In this document: piece after piece, positions 17,256-53,473 of the stretch
Layout: every line of letters begins with the position of its first letter
Position numbering within the stretch: the first letter of the stretch is position 1
DNA from: Sarcomyxa edulis
Taxonomy: Eukaryota; Basidiomycota; Agaricomycetes; Agaricales; Mycenaceae
Direction of reading: 5' to 3'
Length of the DNA: 64,000 nt
Assembly (NCBI GenBank): GCA_009761415.1
Contig: QUOL01000023.1
Location: forward strand, 186,001-250,000
The notes under the pieces: generated by a model
Seen by the model: the letters and a program-made list of their open reading frames with translations, nothing else
What the model was told of the DNA's origin: nothing
Databases searched by the model: none
Program-made: the position numbers and the translations under genes

Positions 17256-18307
17256 TTACGGAGTAGCAGTGGCTGCAGATGCTGGGCAATGTGTCAATAC
17301 GTTCCAGTTATACAGCACGGTGAACTCACCTGTTTCATGGACATGGTGCTTCATCAAGATGCCCCCTGAGGTCGTGGCAGTTGGGCCTATGATAACAGAT
17401 AGTCGTCAATAAAAACAATATATGTCTAGTAGCAATCACTAACCAGCATCTCGGGTTTGACTGGAGATCTCTTCGTGGACGTGATGCATTAATAGGAGAG
17501 AGGGATCTCGAGCTTAGTGTTGAGGGCCCCGGTCAGCTGACGCGTTGAGAAAGAATGACATCGGGATCACCGACCTGCCAGTTCAGCACGGCTAGAGGTG
17601 ACCTCTTGATGGACATGATGTTTTATCAAGCGACCGTCGGAGACACTGCTGTCCCGGGCTACACGGTGATAATAACAAGGACATGATTAGGAGGTTAGCT
17701 GTCCAGGATATACCAACTTTACGGACCTGAAATCACTGGGGAGGGGGAAATCTCTTCATGGACATGGTGTTTAATCAGCGAGCCACTTGAGGGGAGGGTC
17801 TGGGCTAGATAATGTTTGGGATAGATGTCAGAGATTGGCGGCATTGACCGTCTGTATCACTGACCTGTCACTGTAGAAAAGGGGGAGACCTCTTGATGGA
17901 CGTGGTGTTTTATGAGCACGCCACTCGAACCATCACCATCGGCCCGGGCTACACAAAGATCATGGCTGTAGGTAAGCATCTACGACTATAATAATACGCA
18001 ATAACGATTTACCCGCTAGTAAAACTGGAGACGGGGCCACTTCTTCATGGACGTGGTGCTTTATGAGGACGCCAATAGAGCCACTTTCATAGTTATCTGC
18101 CGTAGTGCACGTCAACAATCGTTGGACAAGATGCATTGGAAGTACTGACTTGCTGCCTGTCCGCGAGAAGGACCGCCTATATGAAAGACATTAGGGTCAG
18201 GTTCCTCACAAGAATGCGCGGAGCTTGCACTGACCTTCGTTATTCACTGGGCTTGCGCAAACCAGAGCGACAGTGAGCATGAGACTGCAGAGCAATGAAG
18301 CATGCAT
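17256..18307 (-). CDS. Secreted tandem-repeat precursor with six His-rich modules, one per exon (candidate RiPP precursor)
   Basis: Nine exons: 18307..18235, 18176..18150, 18096..18013, 17948..17865, 17804..17727, 17658..17575, 17506..17444, 17386..17330, 17281..17256; about 191 aa. Exon 1 encodes a classic signal peptide (MHASLLCSLMLTVALVCA, then SPVNNE). Exons 3-8 each encode one repeat with the core GVLIKHHVHEEVSPS or close variants (LIKHHVHQEV, LIKHHVHEEI, LLMHHVHEEI, LMKHHVHET). The last exon adds ASAATATP and stops. All eight introns are phase 1, so any repeat exon can be duplicated or lost without frame change. Each repeat holds three His and no Cys. Tyr occurs only before the first repeat. 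No KR dibasic site is present. With UstYa-like genes next door this fits a ribosomal-peptide precursor. A secreted metal-binding protein is the main alternative. I know no named family. Confidence 0.85.
17330..18096 (-). repeat. Six tandem exon-intron modules of the precursor
   Basis: Repeat exons start at 18096, 17948, 17804, 17658, 17506 and 17386, with spacings of 148, 144, 146, 152 and 120 bp. The best-conserved DNA is the stretch encoding KHHVHEE (on the plus strand a recurring motif like CTTCATGGACGTGGTGTTT). Introns have diverged more than the core codons. This suggests old duplications kept by selection on the core. Confidence 0.9.
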
Positions 18308-18556: not shown

Positions 18557-18838
18557 CTACTTGCGAAGCACTGCGCCTAGCCCATCGTACGGATCCGGAC
18601 GCGGAAGATCGCGAGTGTCACGCAAGTATTCCAAGTGTGGGTGTAGCGTGTCGGACACGAGTTTGACTTGATGAGTTGTGAACGCGAGACAAAAGATGTT
18701 CACGAGGACCAACGAGACGATGAGGGCGACAAAAACACGCGGATTGCTGAATGGGATGGGTTTCGAAGTGTCTTGGGAAGATGAGACATGCCCATTTCCG
18801 GACTCGTCCTGACTGAGCGGAACGTAATTCGAGGGCAT
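18557..18838 (-). CDS. Short single-helix membrane protein resembling the N-terminus of UstYa proteins
   Basis: An uninterrupted frame of 93 aa from the ATG at 18838. A short cytosolic N-terminus (MPSNYVPLSQDESGN) is followed by one hydrophobic helix (VFVALIVSLVLVNIFCLAF) and a lumenal tail with DTRDLPRPDPYDGLG. This layout (NYxPL start, one helix, then an acidic Pro-rich stretch) is that of the membrane-anchor half of fungal DUF3328/UstYa proteins, but both HxxHC motifs are absent. It could be a deliberately short family member acting with the full UstYa gene that starts about 710 bp away on the other strand, or a truncated copy. It lies 250 bp upstream of the precursor on the same strand. 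Confidence 0.65.
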   Translation of the reverse strand: MPSNYVPLSQDESGNGHVSSSQDTSKPIPFSNPRVFVALIVSLVLVNIFCLAFTTHQVKLVSDTLHPHLEYLRDTRDLPRPDPYDGLGAVLRK

Positions 18839-19548: not shown

Positions 19549-20202
19549 ATGCCTCAACCTCAACTCCCCCGGTATCGTCTCTCATCCGGTCTCGCCTTGG
19601 TCTGCTTCTTCATCCTCCTTGGAACTACCGCGTTCAATGTTGCTTTCACACTCTACAATGTCAGGTTGCTTGCGCAGCTGCTCCCTCCCCAAAAGCAATA
19701 TTGTGTGTCTGTTCTCCAAAACACAAAAATTCCTTGTTACTGACTGTCCAGTCAAGCGTACATCGGCGATGATTACCCTGCGCAACTGCCGATCCCCCTG
19801 GCGCCCGTAGGACTCGCTCTTGAGAACGGAAACCCTCACTTCTCTCTCTACGATGATGCAGAATGGGGCACGTTATTCCCTTCCGACGGATTCACCACCC
19901 TCGGCCCCAACAATCGCACGTTCTTATTGTCGATGATTCATCAGCTTCACTGCCTTGACATTATTCGGGTTGGATTCGTCGTGAACGGTACTAAGGCGGC
20001 GCACCATATCGAGCATTGCCTTCGATATCTACGACAAGTAGTGCTGTGTTATGCGGATACTACATTAGAGGTGGACACGCCGGTCCTGGTGGATGGTAAG
20101 CTTGAGCATGCCGCAGGTGGAGAGGGAATGGTGCACCGATGTAAGGATTGGACGGCGGTGAGGAGTTACTTGGAAGAGAATCCGGCCTCAGATTATGCAT
20201 AG
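19549..20202 (+). CDS. UstYa-like (DUF3328) oxidative cyclisation protein
   Basis: Two exons: 19549..19702 and 19757..20202; about 199 aa. One N-terminal hydrophobic helix (SSGLALVCFFILLGTTAF) anchors it, and a lumenal domain follows. The two HxxHC motifs that define UstYa proteins are intact: MIHQLHCLDIIR and HHIEHCLRYLRQ, followed by VVLCYADTTLE. In known dikaritin pathways (ustiloxin, phomopsin, asperipin) UstYa-type proteins carry out oxidative ring closure of the repeated core peptide in the secretory pathway. The spacing of the HxxHC motifs (about 25 residues) and the conserved Cys and D/T residues after them look complete, so it is probably active. The neighbouring repeat precursor is the obvious candidate substrate; that link is inference. 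Confidence 0.88.
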
Positions 20203-22782: not shown

Positions 22783-25260
22783 ATGTCTTTTCTTCGCGTC
22801 CTTGGCTCTGCTTTCCTAGCCTTTGTTCTATGGAGAATATTCAAGAAACTCACAGCGCCCAAGTCTCCTCTCGCGGATGTTGCTGGGCCGACAAAGGAAC
22901 ATTGGCTCAAAGGTCTCTGTCATAGCTTGGTCTTATGCGGTGCCATACTGATACTGTTAGGGCGCTGCAGGAAATTATCATAGAATCTTCCAAGATGGGT
23001 TAGAATATAATCTCGGACTGGCAGAAAGATACGGAGGAGCAGTCAAGATTCATGCATTGCTTGGAGTCAGCTTTCTTGCTAGATAACCCATGATGGTCCG
23101 TTGAATGTTCTACTCCAGGATGAACAGCTCTATGTATCGGACCCTCGCGCCCTCCATCACATTGTTGTGAAAGAGCAACATGTCTACGAGGAAACTGACA
23201 TGTTTATAATGGGCAACCGTTTGATTTTTGGTGAAGGGCTTATTGCAACGCTGGGTGAATATTTTCTCCTCTTCACGTCGTTATAATCTGACTCACCGAA
23301 CGAACGAACTGCTCGAAAAATAGGTGATCAACACAAGAAACAGCGCAAAATGCTGAACCCTGTCTTCTCCCTCGCTAATATGAGAGATCTACTACCCATC
23401 ATCCAGCCCATTGCGAACCAACTACGTGATATATTTCTCTCTCAAATTTCGTCTGATGGTCGTAAGTTACATGATTGCAACTTGATGAAGTTTGCGGCCT
23501 TGACGATAAATTCCTAGGGTCGCAAGAAATCAATGTCTTGCCTTGGTTGTCTCGCGGGGCTCTTGAATATATCTGTCAAGCCGGTTTAGGATATTCGTTC
23601 GATGCCTTGGATGTCACCAAGACAAACGAGTATGTGGAAGCTCTCAAAATGCTAGCGTAAGTATCATATCTTACTCTATGGAAACAATCTAACGTCATTG
23701 GGCGGCTAGTCCGACCGGGCTACGCATAATCCTTCTCCGGCCTTTTGTACCCCTCGTTATGCGCAATCTCTCCCTTTATTGGAGAAATAAACTGGTAGAC
23801 TGGTTGCCCATCAAGCCATTGAAAGAGCTGCAACGAATAGTTGGTGTCATGGATACTGCAGGCAGGAGAATCTTCGCCGAAAAGAAGTCTGCGATGGACC
23901 AGACAAACGGCCACGATTCGAGGTTAGCAGGAAACTTGCGTGAGCGCATGAAGGGAAAGGATATCATGAGTATCATGCGTAAGTGGCCTACCTCGATACG
24001 GAAGTGGTAACAAGCTCAAGGGACTTGTAGTCCGAGCAAACGCGTCCTCGGATGTCTCCGATAGACTGACAGAATCAGAACTACTTGGACAAATGAAGTA
24101 GGTGCATTGGACACTCTCGGCTGCCTTCATTCTGGAACCCATTCGTTTGCAGCACCATTATTTTTGCAGGCTTCGAGACCACAACCACCGCGATCTGCAG
24201 AATTCTCTATATCCTTGCTAGTCGCCCAGAGGTACAAGCTCGACTTCGAAGCGAAGTTCGCAAGGCGAAGTGCGATTACGGTGGTTCCAAGGATGGCTGG
24301 GAAGATGTAAACCTTCCTTACGACACCTTGGTAGGTCTACCATATCTTGACGCAGTTGTCCGGGAGACCTTGCGGGTGCACCCTCCTACCTCTCTCCTCA
24401 GCCGGACGTAAGTTTATATCTGAATCATTCAGATGCGGGTTTCTCAATCTTGTCTGTAGAACTCGAGCAGCAACGACACTCCCTCTGCAGTACCCTGTTC
24501 ACTCGGTCTCTGGAGCCGAGGTGTCTTCGATTCCACTGCCTGCGAACACTACTGTCATTATCTCAATTCTTGCGTCGAATCACAACAAGAAGATATGGGG
24601 TGAAGACGCGTCTGTTTGGCGGCCCGAGAGATGGCTTACTGCTTCGGGCGAGCGAATCCAACTGGGGAAAGACACGGATGGAACACTTGTAGATAACGAG
24701 GGGACCTCATTAGAGGGCGCTGCTGAAGGCGCTCCCGGTAATAGGGACGGTGTAAAATATCCAGGTGTCTATGCGTCAATGTGAGTCCAGCCATGGAGTC
24801 TCATTGCATATCTGTTACTGATAGCGATTCACAGGAGTACGTGATTTGCCTATAGTGCTTGACAAGTTTACTGAATCTCGGCTCTAGTGACATTCCTTGG
24901 AGGTGGCCGAGCCTGCATGTAAGTTTCTAGACGACGATCTCATAATCCATGGTGTTGATGGTCTCTTTTGTGAAGTGGTTTCAAATTTGCAGAGATGGAG
25001 ATGAGTGCGTCATGTTAGGCTTGACTATCATCATGCGTATTTTGACACCTTGATTTTCAGAACAAGTTCTCAGTACTCTCTTGTCTACCATGCAATTCTC
25101 TCTCCCATCGACGCCAGACGAACACGGCAACATTAAAGAAATATACTGGAAGATGAACGGCCTACAAGTTCCCGTTGTGCGTCCCCCTTCAGGAGACAAT
25201 CAGACTGCACAAGTGCCTTTGCAGGTTCGGTTAGTGCGCGAGGAGGACTTTCTGGCGTAA
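22783..25260 (+). CDS. Cytochrome P450 monooxygenase, ER-anchored
   Basis: About 12 exons. The start is chosen at MSFLRVLGSAFLAFVLWRIF, an N-terminal ER anchor. Order of hallmarks: the N-terminal block DEQLYVSDPRALHHIVVKEQ; helix C region QHKKQRKMLNPVFS; I-helix IIFAGFETTTTA (oxygen activation); K-helix ExxR in VVRETLRVHPPT; PERW region VWRPERWLTA; and the heme loop FLGGGRACIGFKF with the Cys ligand. The frame stays open through canonical introns only if a 2-nt exon (24835-24836) is included just before the heme loop. It could modify the adjacent peptide or an unrelated substrate. The CYP family is not assigned; the fold and motifs are those of long-chain or secondary-metabolite fungal P450s. 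Confidence 0.85.
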
Positions 25261-26559: not shown

Positions 26560-28002
26560 CTACTTATAGGTCGCTGCTAGCCGTCCGACAATATAGTTCT
26601 CCGTCACAACAGTGGGATACTTTGGTTTCTGTCCGTCCTCTACGCAAGTCGGCAGGCATGATATAGTTGCGTCGAAATTGGGATTGCAGAAAAAGGCGAT
26701 AGATTGCCGCGCAGGACTTATGCTCTCAGTCTCGTTGATCTTTTTGGCGGGAGGAGCAACGACGCGGTGCAAAGTGGAACGTAAAACATCATTACTCCAT
26801 CGCGCGAGCAGGTCTCCAACGTTCACCACAATTGTGCCAGGCTAGGAAAATGAGCATGTATACCATATGATAAGACCGAAAACAAGATGCACATACAATG
26901 GGTGTCGCAGGGTGGTATTCTTTGGTATGGGGATTTTGTACTTCAAGGCCGCCAACCTGAGCGATGTCAAGACATAAGCCTTGAAAGAAAATTGGCAAAA
27001 AACGGCTTACAGAGTCTTGAAACAACAGGGTCAATGTACCATAGTCTGTTCCCGCATTTTGTATGAGTGAGGATACATATAGATCAAACCATGACGTCTC
27101 GCACCGGAGTGGGCACCAGCGCGGGCTTTCCCGTTTCCTTGCACTAATTCCCGCTTCACAGCAGGATACGACAACAGTCGAAGGTTGTGACACTGTTTGT
27201 CAATTCTGTAGTCAAAATAGTCCTCGTTGAGCTCTAGCCCTAGAGCGATCGATCGCATTACTTGAACATGTAGGTCGTGACATCTCTATATGATACGGTC
27301 AGTGATTTTATAACAAAGAGAGTAGCGTGTAAAGAAATTCACCTTGTAGAACTGGAGCATAGTGTGCTTAAAAAGCGGGGCGTGCTTTTCAGTGGGCCAC
27401 ATGTTTGGATATGGCGAATCCCAGTCACGACCTATTTCCATGGTTTCTTTGAAGTCAGGAGCTTCTGCTCGCAGTCTTGCGATTTCTTGGGGATCCAATG
27501 ACTGCGTCACTCGTTCACGACCGGGAATGACGTATCCTCTGTTTGACTCGGGGGTTGCCCATTGCAGTTTGTTCTTGGTAGATCGGGTCAGGAGGGTAAG
27601 CTGGGAAAGTAAGGCTTGAACCCACTTTGATGTCCGGATCCAAAGCGAAGAAGGCAGCACTCTGTATTATGACTTTAGCCTTCTACGACATAGTCTGACT
27701 ATGCAGGAACACCGTCACCTTCTCAAAAGTATTCTGGATCGCGGTTGATGGGATCCCATGATTTTCGAGATAGATAAATCCGCTGTCCTTGAAAGCGGAT
27801 ACGATTTCGTCGGCGGCACTTCGTTTATCATGACGCGAGGTCGCGCCTTGGAACTTTTGAAAGTCAATCACAGGTATCTGGAAGGAGCTAGTGCTCTAAC
27901 GAGAGTAGTATGAGTATAGTCTCCATAATGAGACTGGACAAATTTCCATACCTGAGTAGCAAATCCTCTGGCCTTCAAACGTAAAGCGGCTCGAGACAAC
28001 AT
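26560..28002 (-). CDS. 2-oxoglutarate/Fe(II)-dependent dioxygenase (isopenicillin N synthase-like)
   Basis: Multi-exon gene. The N-terminal DIOX_N block (IPVIDFQKFQ, VSAFKDSGFIYLENHGIP) is followed by the double-stranded beta-helix domain. The iron ligands are the His and Asp of AGAHSDYGTLTLL and the distal His of STLHRVVAPP. The 2-oxoglutarate-binding Arg and Ser are in ARQSIAFF. Such enzymes hydroxylate, desaturate or close rings on small molecules or peptides. The first exon gives MLSRAALRLKARGFATQ, which looks like a mitochondrial presequence, unusual for the family. It may instead be an odd start, but splicing to IPVIDF is phase-0 and clean. Position at the right edge of the accessory block suggests, without proving, a tailoring role. 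Confidence 0.87.
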
Positions 28003-49048: not shown

Positions 49049-50662
49049 GTTGGGATCGATTGGGGAGTGCGAGAGGATGAAGCTTGAGGAAAAAAATCTG
49101 AATGTGTGGGGACTTGAAGGTCAGAATATAACTAAGAATTCAGCATGTCTACTGGGTAAGAATAGCAGTGTTACGTTGTTCGGGCACGCACCGCCTTGAG
49201 AAGGCATCAGAGATGTATCGATGATCGATAGCCCGAGAGAGCCGACAACTAAAGACTTGTACTTGTTCTCGACTCGGGTTTCAGAAGAAACACAAAAAAA
49301 AATCTTCACCTTGTACATCAATGACCTGAAAGGCCTAACCTCGTTCCTCATCCTCGCCGGGTCCTCAAGGCCTCATGATCACCGATCGCGATGATGGATC
49401 CTGTAACGTTCAGCGGTTGCGTCAATCAGCGTAAGTTCCGTTCTGGATGGGCTCAAGCAAAAATCATACCTCAATCATAATGAAAACACGGTGGTCTCTG
49501 CGAGCAAACCTCGAAGGAGATCATTACCGATGCGAGGCCGCCGGTACTGATAAGGGATCAAAGTGATCGATCGGCATCGGTGTTCCGTTACACTGGCATT
49601 GCCCGCACCAAAAATATTTTTCTACTCTCCTCCCATCACCTACGCGTATACGTACGCGCACAGACGCGTGCAGACTTGTACGGTATTCGCGCGTTTTCTC
49701 GCTCTTTTCTGTCTTGCGGTCCATTCTTTGCGGAGTGTACCTAGGTGTGTACCATATGGTGACTTCCGTTTGCCGAATGTTCTAGTGACAATTAGCTCTT
49801 GCAAATGATCTTGGATTGTGATGCTCCATGTTGGTATGTGATCCTCCTGATGTCTCAGTGTTTCGCATTGGTGCCGTTCTAAAGGCTATGCCATTTCTCT
49901 CCTCCCAGGTCCCAGCTGATGAGAGGAATGATGGTTGTAGAATTACTACATTCTCGATTTGGTCTAACCTCCACCACAACTTGAAAGTCCGTCCAGAGTC
50001 CAGTCCATGAGATCGCGTGATCTTTATCGCGTCTGTCGGATTCTGCAGACGCTCATTGGTGCCCATGCCCATGTCCTCGCATCGGACTCTTTGTTATTGA
50101 AGCTGGTGAGTCCGGGATCGCATCATTTTGCAGTAAAGCATTACCAATACCTACTCGCCAGTGGAACCCAAGCCCAAAAAACAGTTGGCCTTGATGTTTT
50201 TTGGGCGATAGCAACGTGATACATCCCTTCTTGGCGGCCGTGATCTTTGATGGGAATGCGGTCTCGCCTCCGGTAAATCTCTTTGGTTTTGACTTGACTG
50301 TATAGAGCGCTGCAGGGGAAACATGTGTGGGTCTACGATCTCAATCGGAATATCACATCGCGCAAGTTTCCAAAGCAATGGTACAGCCCCGGGGCCTACG
50401 GTCCAGTCCTTTTGGCAGTATAAAGGCAAGAGGGACGCGTCGAATATTCTTCAGCCAGTCTCTCCTTCGCTTCTTTTCAAGTACTGTGTAGTGAGTTCTA
50501 CTCTTCATACCAGTTACACAATGGATGCTAACAAACATTACTTACTCTCCTAGCTTTCTTCTTCTTTGAGCATCCTTCTTCGTATTTTAACTTCGTTCAC
50601 TTCCTTTTCTAATACTTCTTTCAACCCCGAAACTCTTTACATTTTCATCACCTTTTTTCAAA
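49049..50662. other. Long intergenic region upstream of the Kex2-repeat gene
   Basis: About 1.6 kb between the divergent DUF6593-like and Kex2-repeat genes. It has no supported gene. It holds the TATA element at 50419 and a pyrimidine-rich stretch before the start codon. Confidence 0.55.
50419..50424 (+). promoter_or_regulatory. TATA box of the Kex2-repeat secreted gene
   Basis: TATAAA, about 240 nt before the ATG and followed by CT-rich DNA. It is well placed as a core promoter with a moderate 5' leader, and suggests a regulated, strongly expressed gene. Confidence 0.5.
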
Positions 50663-52084
50663 ATGTACTCCACGTCCGTTATCGTCTCTTTGGCCATCCT
50701 CTCGGCCGCCGCACCCTCTTTTGCCGCCCCATTGGCGTAGGTTATATCTATCCACTTAGTTTTCCATCTCACTGACCGTTTTTCGATACAGTACTCGTTT
50801 CTCCCTTCCCGTCTCGACTATCGCAAAGGAACTCGGTGGAGGCCTCCTCACAGGTGGTGCCTTTGCCGGATTGGAGGCCCTTTTAGATAAGGAAACCTCC
50901 CCTGCGTATGTCTCACTCATTCCATTTTTCTATATCTCCGTCTAACTTCCATCTTCAGTGCCCGGGAACTCGCGGCCCGCGATCTCGAAGCCCGTCTCAA
51001 ACTTCCTATTGGTACCATCATCAAGTCCCTTGGAGGTGGTCTCCTCACTGGCGGTGCTTTCGCCGGCCTCGAGAGTCTCTTGGAAGGAAACACGTGAGTA
51101 ATCATTATGTAAGACTCTATTCTTTGTGCTCATGTTTCGTTCTCAGTAAACGCGAACTCTCCCTTGAGGCTCGTGCCGGTTTTGCCGGACTTTTGGACAG
51201 TCTCATTGGTGTCGGCGAGAAGGAGCTCCCCGCTGTCATCAAGAACGCTATCATCGGAGGCGCTGCTTCTGGTGCCACCAACGGTATCGCCAGCAGCATC
51301 TTCGGCAGCCGCGCCGTCGGTGGAAAGGTTGTTGGAGAGGTCATTGAAGACACTCTTGGCACCACAATTGCTAAGGGTGCCCTCAGTGGTCTCGGCAGTG
51401 CTATCGGTGGAACTGCTATTGGAGCTATCTTCGACAAGCTCTTCAAGTACGTTTTTGTCTATCATTGATGCATTTGCTTCCAATTGACTGACTTGCCTCT
51501 CATTTATAGCAAACGTTCCTTCGAAGACCTCACCGAGGACGAGATCAACACTCTCGCTACCTTCCTCGAGTCTTCCGACGTCAGCAAGCGTGCTCTCAGC
51601 GACCTTACCGATGATGAGATCGACACCCTTACTACTTTCCTCCAATCCGTTGACGTCACCAAGCGTGCTGTTGGTGGAAAGGTCGTCGGAGAGGTCATCG
51701 AGGACACTCTCGGAACCACCGTTGCCAAGGGTGTTCTCAGCGGTCTTGGCAGTGCTATCGGTGGAACCGCCGTAGGCGCTGCTTTCGACAAGCTCTTCAA
51801 GTATGTTTCGATTTTCTCCGATAGCTGTCCTTATCGCTGACCAGTACTTCCCATTCTACAGCAAACGTGCTTTGGAAGACCTGACCGAAGACGAGCTCAC
51901 CGCCCTCGCTACTTTCCTCCAGTCCGCCGACGTCAGCAAGCGTGAGCCCGAGCCTCTCGGTTCCATCGGCAAAGGCGCCATCGGACTTGTTGCCAGTCTC
52001 GGTGCCTCAGAACTCGCAGGTGGCCTTGTCGACAAGATCGAGAGCCTGTTCAAGCGGGAGATGTCCCTCGACGAGCTCGATTAA
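50663..52084 (+). CDS. Secreted Kex2-processed repeat protein (KEP-type) with Gly-rich repeats
   Basis: Six exons, all introns phase 2: 50663..50736, 50792..50905, 50959..51093, 51147..51446, 51510..51800, 51862..52084; about 378 aa. A signal peptide (MYSTSVIVSLAILSAAA) leads into tandem segments. Two copies carry LGGGLLTGGAFAGLE; two carry GGKVVGEVIEDTLGTT; three carry the acidic helix DLTEDEINTLATFL, each ended by a KR dibasic (VSKR, VTKR, NKR). There are at least seven KR sites. This is the layout of fungal KEP proteins, which Kex2 cuts into secreted peptides; U. maydis Rep1 is a known example. The Gly-zipper units (for example SGLGSAIGGTA) may be membrane-active or self-assembling. No Cys is present. 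Its biological role is unknown. Confidence 0.88.
51310..51943 (+). repeat. Tandem exon-encoded repeats within the Kex2-repeat gene
   Basis: The Gly-rich unit at about 51310-51446 recurs nearly unchanged at 51668-51800. The acidic-helix unit occurs at about 51511-51591, 51592-51665 and 51863-51943. Copies end on or near intron borders of equal phase, pointing to segmental duplication. Confidence 0.8.
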
Positions 52085-53473
52085 ATATTTACGACGTGAT
52101 GGTTATGATGGGGATGTATTTATCTTTTTATTTTTCGGGTCTGGCTCATGAAGTATTATATAAATCTACTATTACTTAGTTCGATACGAATGCCACAGTT
52201 TTTGGATGCTCTGATGTTGTGCTTCTTGAGTCTGAGCCAAGTTAGAGCAGCTATTTAGCTGCCTTCGACGCGTCGCGTCCCTAAAGCATCACGTGCATTG
52301 ACTCTCACCCTATATTTACTTTTGCCTTTCCTTCACTTTTAGCTCATGGCACAAAGGTGCATCGAAGCTATCAGTCACAAAGCTTAAGCAGTGTGTCCGC
52401 GGCGAGCCTTGCTTGAAAACCAACGCGAATCATCCCGCAGAGGTCTCTGAAAGGTCATCGATCCCCGACAAGGCCCACCATGACGAAAGGACACATAAGT
52501 CATAGCTATTTTCGATTCCGGATGGATTCGGACAGTGATGTGGCGAACTCCAAGTGGAGTTCGGTTCAAAGATACATGTCCAAGTGTCGTAAGATGTCGG
52601 TTCGTGTCATCGGGGACGTGCTCGGCGACGAAGTCGAAAATATAGCGCGCTAAAGTAAATCGTTCGGCTGAGATAGCCACTATTCGACATGTATCATGGA
52701 TTGGAAAGAAAGGAACGCGTGTATTCAGGTTGACAGCAAAGCATGATAACCAGCGTATATGCATCTATAAGTATTACATCGTTTGAAAGCCTGAAGGCTA
52801 CCGCTGGAGCCTAGAGCTGTACAGGCCAACATTATCAGTGTTCGAAAGGATGATCTCTCCGGTTGAGCGGAACAAAGCAGTGGATGTCCTGCCTCGAACG
52901 CAACTCGAACGAGGTTTAACATCAACTACTTATAGGATGGACTGCAAGCAAACCAGTGATTGCGCGCTGCGGTAGACTCGCCCAATTGGGAAAGCCGAAC
53001 CAAGTGAACGTGGCAGCGATGGCCCTCCTTCTCCTCCTCCTTCTCCAGTAACAACTGGCACAATTACTAGCCATGGCATGAGTATATGCGCATATGCATG
53101 ACTAGTAGCAGTGACTTGGTGTGCTGTCGAGGATGTGTGGGTGGTGACCCGGTTGTGGCTGATGTTGGTGTGGCTACGCACGCGTTGTTTGTTTCGGCTT
53201 TGCCCTTCGCCCTGGTTCGGCTTCGGCTTCAAAACCCTTCGCCCAGGTCTGCTCAATTTATAGCCTCTTTTCCTTTCTCTTCATCATCAACTACCATCTC
53301 CACAACAACTCTCTTCTCCCTCAATCTCTCCCCAAGTAAGTCATATCTTATCCCTTCATCCTCAACTACATCGTCCTAATCGTATCTTATAGTCCAATCA
53401 ATCCAATTACCGTTCGTCTTCATTCCAATCCTACGCGTGTCTGCCGTTTTTCCTGACACGGTGACGATCACAG
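52085..53473. other. Long intergenic region upstream of 14-3-3
   Basis: About 1.4 kb. A minus-strand frame of 126 codons at 52384-52764 has a real ATG but no relatives I recognise; I leave it uncalled. The right part has a CT-rich tract (about 53264-53330) and a 5'-UTR intron. Confidence 0.5.
53336..53392 (+). other. Probable 5'-UTR intron of the 14-3-3 gene
   Basis: GTAAGT donor at 53336 and TTATAG acceptor ending 53392, 57 nt long, directly after a pyrimidine-rich putative transcription-start zone and before the ATG at 53474. Typical size for this genome. Confidence 0.5.

Follow-up and report, generated by a model that had tools for sequence, protein, structure and literature searches.

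The gene at positions 18307-17256 (minus strand) of the window, the 64,000-nucleotide stretch of Sarcomyxa edulis DNA analysed here (C16:186001-250000), encodes a predicted secreted-type protein with six copies of a short histidine-centred peptide, each on its own exon, and is transcribed divergently from a UstYa/DUF3328 gene lying about 1.2 kb away. The gene is real, well formed and unusual. The reading to which we lean, with moderate confidence, is that of a UstYa-linked secreted peptide precursor with six cores, working in a dikaritin-like manner while falling outside the Kex2 definition. This reading is supported by the nine-exon model with its phase-1 introns and six cores, the conservation of the core as protein, the intact PF11807 gene, the activity reported for DUF3328 enzymes, the conservation of a neighbouring membrane protein, the pairing of UstYa genes with repeat precursors at three other loci (C36, C13 and C9) and the layout of the C36 precursor. 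It is weakened by the lack of a dibasic site, of an aromatic residue in the core and of any precursor relative in one large protein search, by the difference between the window UstYa and the copies at those three loci, by five of nine UstYa neighbourhoods in which no precursor was recognised, and by the absence of a tyrosinase or methyltransferase among the 30 ORFs given to Pfam.

The script-checked model of the precursor gene has nine exons and a coding sequence of 582 nt including the stop codon, which yields a protein of 193 aa. All eight introns are of the GT...AG type, 48-68 nt long and in phase 1. Exon 1 (18235..18307) provides the start codon and a putative signal peptide, MHASLLCSLMLTVALVCASPVNNE, and ends in phase 1, while exon 2 (18150..18176) is a 27-nt phase 1/1 linker coding for GPSRGQAA. 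The gene model and the alignment of the copies place core copies 1 to 6 on exon 3 (18013..18096; VLIKHHVHEEVAPSP), exon 4 (17865..17948; VLIKHHVHQEVSPFS), exon 5 (17727..17804; SLIKHHVHEEISPSP), exon 6 (17575..17658; RLIKHHVHQEVTSSR), exon 7 (17444..17512; LLLMHHVHEEISSQT) and exon 8 (17330..17386; ILMKHHVHET), all on the minus strand, and exon 9 (17256..17281) codes for the C-terminus ASAATATP and the stop. The 14 residues LLCSLMLTVALVCA have a mean hydropathy of 2.6, and it is from hydropathy alone that an N-terminal signal peptide, and thus a secreted-type protein, is predicted. A TATA-like stretch is visible by eye upstream of the gene.

Splicing of the predicted exons appears nearly forced. 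The open frame around each core spans only 24-76 codons, so that nothing but splicing can join the copies. Donors of the GTNNGT, GTRAG or GTAAA kind downstream of the cores number one in five of the six cases and two in the sixth. The donor chosen in the model gives an identical phase for all six core exons. The last intron, of 48 nt and preceding exon 9, is in frame and stop-free; its retention is possible, and the gene would then have eight instead of nine exons.

Aligned on HHVH, the six copies (VLIKHHVHEEVAPSPV, VLIKHHVHQEVSPFST, SLIKHHVHEEISPSPV, RLIKHHVHQEVTSSRA, LLLMHHVHEEISSQTR and ILMKHHVHETASAATA) define the consensus L-[ILM]-[KM]-H-H-V-H-[EQ]-[ET], with L, H, H, V and H unchanged in all six. 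A single Lys precedes the histidine pair in five copies, and copy 5 has Met instead. Translated in all six frames, the window contains HHVH eight times, six of them in the precursor gene, against a mean of 0.37 and a maximum of 2 in 60 order-2 Markov simulations. The longer pattern [LM][ILM]xHHVH occurs six times in the window, always in the precursor gene, and never in 60 further simulations. A second repeat scan of the window returned the HHVH array as the sole cluster with at least four copies.

The core is conserved as protein, more so than its flanks. The pN/pS ratio among the six copies, pooled over 15 non-independent copy pairs, is 0.147 for the core and 0.109 for HHVH[EQ]E but about 0.76 for the six codons that follow, with synonymous sites in the core near saturation (pS 0.72-0.77); a third-codon-position test on the core gave a Fisher p of 0.037, which is weak by itself. 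When compared to shuffles, the repeat exons are mutually similar (mean score 10.5 versus -6.1) and the introns less so (1.45 versus -5.6). Together, exon similarity and core conservation fit an old exon duplication with selection acting on the peptide. An earlier note on this DNA had proposed a signal peptide exon followed by six symmetric phase-1 repeat exons, nine exons in all, and a core more conserved than the linkers; the scripted model and the pN/pS values bear out both points. For the repeat spacing the note gave 120-152 bp; core starts lie 134-151 bp apart.

The same data bear on the possibility that the gene is a decaying precursor that formerly carried Kex2 sites. Such decay would account for the Lys lost in copy 5, the divergence of copy 6 after HHVHE and a protein devoid of dibasic sites, but it is very improbable for a gene with nine open exons, intact splice sites, a core strongly conserved as protein and no remnant dibasic codon in any of its six copies.

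Two hallmarks of related systems are missing from the precursor: none of the dibasic sites KR, RR, KK or RK is present across its 193 aa, and the core (columns -3 to +5 of the six copies) holds no Tyr, Phe or Trp. A signal peptide followed by repeats, with a single Lys before HH in five of six copies, is also what a precursor of linear signalling peptides of the KEP or pheromone type might look like, its products being released by a monobasic or dipeptidyl protease and left unmodified by UstYa. This is quite unlikely, since copy 5 carries Met where Lys is expected and the KEP definition, as excerpted from PMC7329392, requires KR, KK, RK or RR between the repeats.

The neighbouring UstYa/DUF3328 gene (19549..20202, plus strand) has two exons and codes for 199 aa. 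Pfam places PF11807 at 19744-20199 (E 6.9e-18), and the manually read intron (19703-19756) gives a two-exon model that matches relatives across the junction. Both HxxHC motifs are intact, as HQLHC (H113/H116/C117) and HIEHC (H135/H138/C139). The protein has 88 relatives at E<=1e-3, 87 of them with a precomputed PF11807 annotation, the best named ones being from Taiwanofungus camphoratus (71% identity), Gelatoporia subvermispora (69%) and Grifola frondosa (68%). From the organism names, we take many of these relatives to belong to the Polyporales, Boletales, Russulales and Gloeophyllales. A PDB sequence search with the protein gave no match at E<=1, and its exon found no relative in two contig collections, one genomic and one viral, neither meant for fungi. 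The AlphaFold model of the relative P0001, with 37 of the 88 matches as rows, was poor (mean pLDDT 58.9, pTM 0.33).

Between the precursor and UstYa genes lies a gene for a small single-span membrane protein of 93 aa (18557..18838, minus strand), present as a single copy in the genome. Two of four candidates proved to be relatives, P0089 with 78% and P0090 with 41-42% identity, and the 12-residue C-terminal motif RDLPRPDPYDGL is identical in all three proteins. No Pfam family was found above the cut-off for the membrane protein or for P0089. Its similarity to the UstYa N-terminus is weak (31% over 49 residues, E 3e-4 in a single comparison), and the protein may be a non-catalytic relative of UstYa. 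Fusion of the precursor and the membrane protein into one spliced gene was considered and rejected, as P0089 keeps the C-terminus GAVLRK and the precursor has its own upstream TATA-like stretch, judged by eye.

Farther out, downstream of the UstYa gene, are P450 exons (24097-24781, plus strand) and a weak, sub-cut-off match to the N-terminal part of a 2-oxoglutarate dioxygenase (27289-27666, minus strand), both possibly tailoring enzymes. Among the 30 window ORFs of about 100 aa or longer given to Pfam, none coded for a tyrosinase, methyltransferase, transporter or peptidase. Elsewhere in the window (about 50660-52090, plus strand), a candidate KEP is suggested by frames that encode a secreted-type protein, MYSTSVIVSLAILSAAAPSFAAPLA, in which KR sites occur and repeated peptides such as SFEDLTEDEINTLATFLESSDVSKR and AVGGKVVGEVIEDTLGTTVAKG alternate; a 100-aa piece of it matched no Pfam family above the cut-off.

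The genome as a whole (35.6 Mb, 40 contigs) has 18 stretches matching PF11807, which we grouped into 10 genes in nine neighbourhoods. In three of the eight neighbourhoods outside the window, on C36, C13 and C9, the UstYa gene has a divergently oriented neighbour coding for a secreted repeat precursor, which combines Tyr cores with dibasic sites; the precursor start and the first PF11807 stretch are separated by 1.1-1.3 kb at these loci, compared to 1.6 kb at the window locus. The C36 precursor (L021:6956-8059), beside two UstYa genes, has 15 cores of the DIQSNYGKR kind on seven exons separated by introns that are all in phase 1, several cores being carried by one exon. Its signal exon measures 76 nt against 73 nt in the window gene and its tiny second exon 15 nt against 27. 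The C13 precursor (L023:7405-8228) carries eight DATDVDAYNYPVRK cores on eight exons and the C9 precursor (L025:8249-8821) four such cores and a diverged fifth on five exons; the two are related, sharing the core DATDVDAYNYPVRK and placing each copy on its own exon between phase-0 introns. The HHVH gene is therefore not alone in having one core per exon, an arrangement that occurs with two intron phases. The conventional cores EFTDDIQSNYGKR and DATDVDAYNYPVRK contain Tyr and dibasic sites, the latter numbering 15 (overlapping) in C36, eight in C13 and three in C9, against none in the window precursor. By eye, the window UstYa itself is unlike the copies beside these three precursors and does not have their FNG stretch.

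In five of the nine neighbourhoods (C36:1519k, C12:615k, C12:654k, C37:1776k and C37:1787k) the repeat scan led to no recognised precursor; abundant minisatellite-like repeats weaken the scan on C12, and C37 holds WD40 repeats. On C12 (606001-665000; L029, L030, L036, L037, L031, L032), repeat blocks near two UstYa genes lie on the plus strand at local positions of about 16.5-17.2 kb and again on the minus strand at about 42.1-42.9 kb, and these inverted copies suggest an inverted duplication.

No relative of the window precursor was found at E<=1 among 1119 candidates in one large protein search, its candidates being proteins of 106-338 aa chosen by shared 5-residue words, so that shorter or strongly diverged relatives could escape it. 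Protein and pattern searches of the Sarcomyxa genome located the core at the precursor locus only, the five pattern matches being two at that locus and three two-mismatch DNA matches elsewhere. Pfam gave no family at E<=1, and the one match in a PDB sequence search (E 0.59) was taken as chance. The strongest counter-argument to a partnership follows from this result: the UstYa protein is 55-71% conserved across many Agaricomycetes, and if the two cooperate, relatives of the precursor ought likewise to be traceable. That none appeared may be due to poor annotation of short exons.

Conservation of the UstYa family in the face of an apparently solitary precursor would also suit an unmodified, secreted His-rich protein that chelates copper or zinc through its HHVH units and has no relation to its UstYa neighbour. 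Its core is mainly HHxH with acidic neighbours, and cleavage sites are missing. We nevertheless find this explanation rather unlikely: a secreted repeat gene divergent from a UstYa gene recurs at three other loci, and the L, I/L/M and K/M positions beside the histidines are as conserved as the histidines themselves.

Under the UstYa-linked reading, the secreted precursor would deliver six copies of one short peptide to the ER/Golgi, where the UstYa-type oxidase would modify the LIKHHVHEE-like core, probably with participation of the small membrane protein. The reaction might join Leu, Ile or Val to the imidazole of a His, or oxidise side chains. The peptides would then be released by proteolysis other than that of dibasic Kex2, for instance at the single Lys that precedes HH or within the linkers; alternatively, the modified chain might be used whole. 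Because every core has a phase-1/phase-1 exon to itself, copies could be gained, lost or skipped with the frame kept. Splicing in vivo, secretion, modification by UstYa, cleavage with release, the product and its bioactivity are steps that we infer. It is unlikely, as a generalisation, that an Agaricomycete branch of UstYa proteins acts on His-centred, aromatic-free cores maintained as exchangeable phase-1 exon cassettes, with Kex2-free release, a new class of His-oxidised or His-cross-linked metal-binding peptides as products and the membrane protein as obligate partner.

The precursors of the dikaritins (ustiloxin, phomopsin, asperipin-2a and victorin) have in common with the window gene a signal peptide, repeated cores and a nearby UstYa/DUF3328 gene. 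They differ by Kex2 dibasic sites and aromatic core residues, and the window gene by its single core per symmetric phase-1 exon. The likeness to dikaritin RiPPs drawn in the earlier note thus holds for the setting, with UstYa about 1.2 kb off and three similar loci in the genome, but not in detail. KEPs are defined in PMC7329392 by three or more tandem repeats, each 8 aa or longer, separated by KR, KK, RK or RR, sites that the window precursor does not have. Having been tested for dibasic sites and found without them, it is filed neither as a dikaritin nor as a KEP. Among the S. edulis precursors, all secreted, multi-exon and divergent from UstYa, that of C36 has the same layout of signal exon, tiny exon and phase-1 repeat exons but several cores per exon, whereas those of C13 and C9 differ by phase-0 introns. 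The epichloecyclin precursor GigA likewise consists of secreted imperfect repeats that yield short peptides, but it is likely processed by Kex2 and its cores contain Tyr, as reported in part of PMC9233826.

Published work describes DUF3328 enzymes as dicopper oxidases whose substrates are secreted repeat precursors (excerpts of PMC12186524 and PMC7329392). According to the same excerpt of PMC7329392, a survey of 1461 fungal strains found 22% of 7878 KEPs near DUF3328 genes, with Tyr in 65.6% of the repeats so linked, and such genes near 103 of 1680 Basidiomycota KEPs. The di-histidine types G-3 (57/64) and G-8 (45/49) are also near DUF3328, and are listed there from Ascomycota only; His pairs beside DUF3328 are thus not wholly new. 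Compared by description, they share secreted HH repeats near DUF3328 with the window precursor but have dibasic sites by definition. The protein, Pfam and PDB searches, none of which gave a match accepted as genuine, are consistent with the view of the earlier note that no described family has this core. Di-histidine repeats beside DUF3328 genes have, however, been described in Ascomycota. In our literature search we recognised no description of an HHVH core or of cores on separate symmetric exons, and the words "intron" and "exon" are absent from the main texts of PMC7329392 and PMC6339444.

Nearly all earlier precursors are said to carry KEX2 sites (excerpt of PMC6339444), and published mining for fungal repeat peptides relies on dibasic sites, often near DUF3328 genes (excerpts of PMC7329392 and PMC9632046). 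A precursor on tiny exons that has no dibasic site evades both this filter and ordinary gene prediction, and overlooked precursors of the HHVH kind could partly explain the few Basidiomycota KEPs near DUF3328 genes. Relative to known precursors, the novelty that we infer is the oxidation of an aromatic-free core combined with Kex2-free release; if UstYa acts on such a core, the chemistry of this enzyme family would be wider than in the cases considered here.
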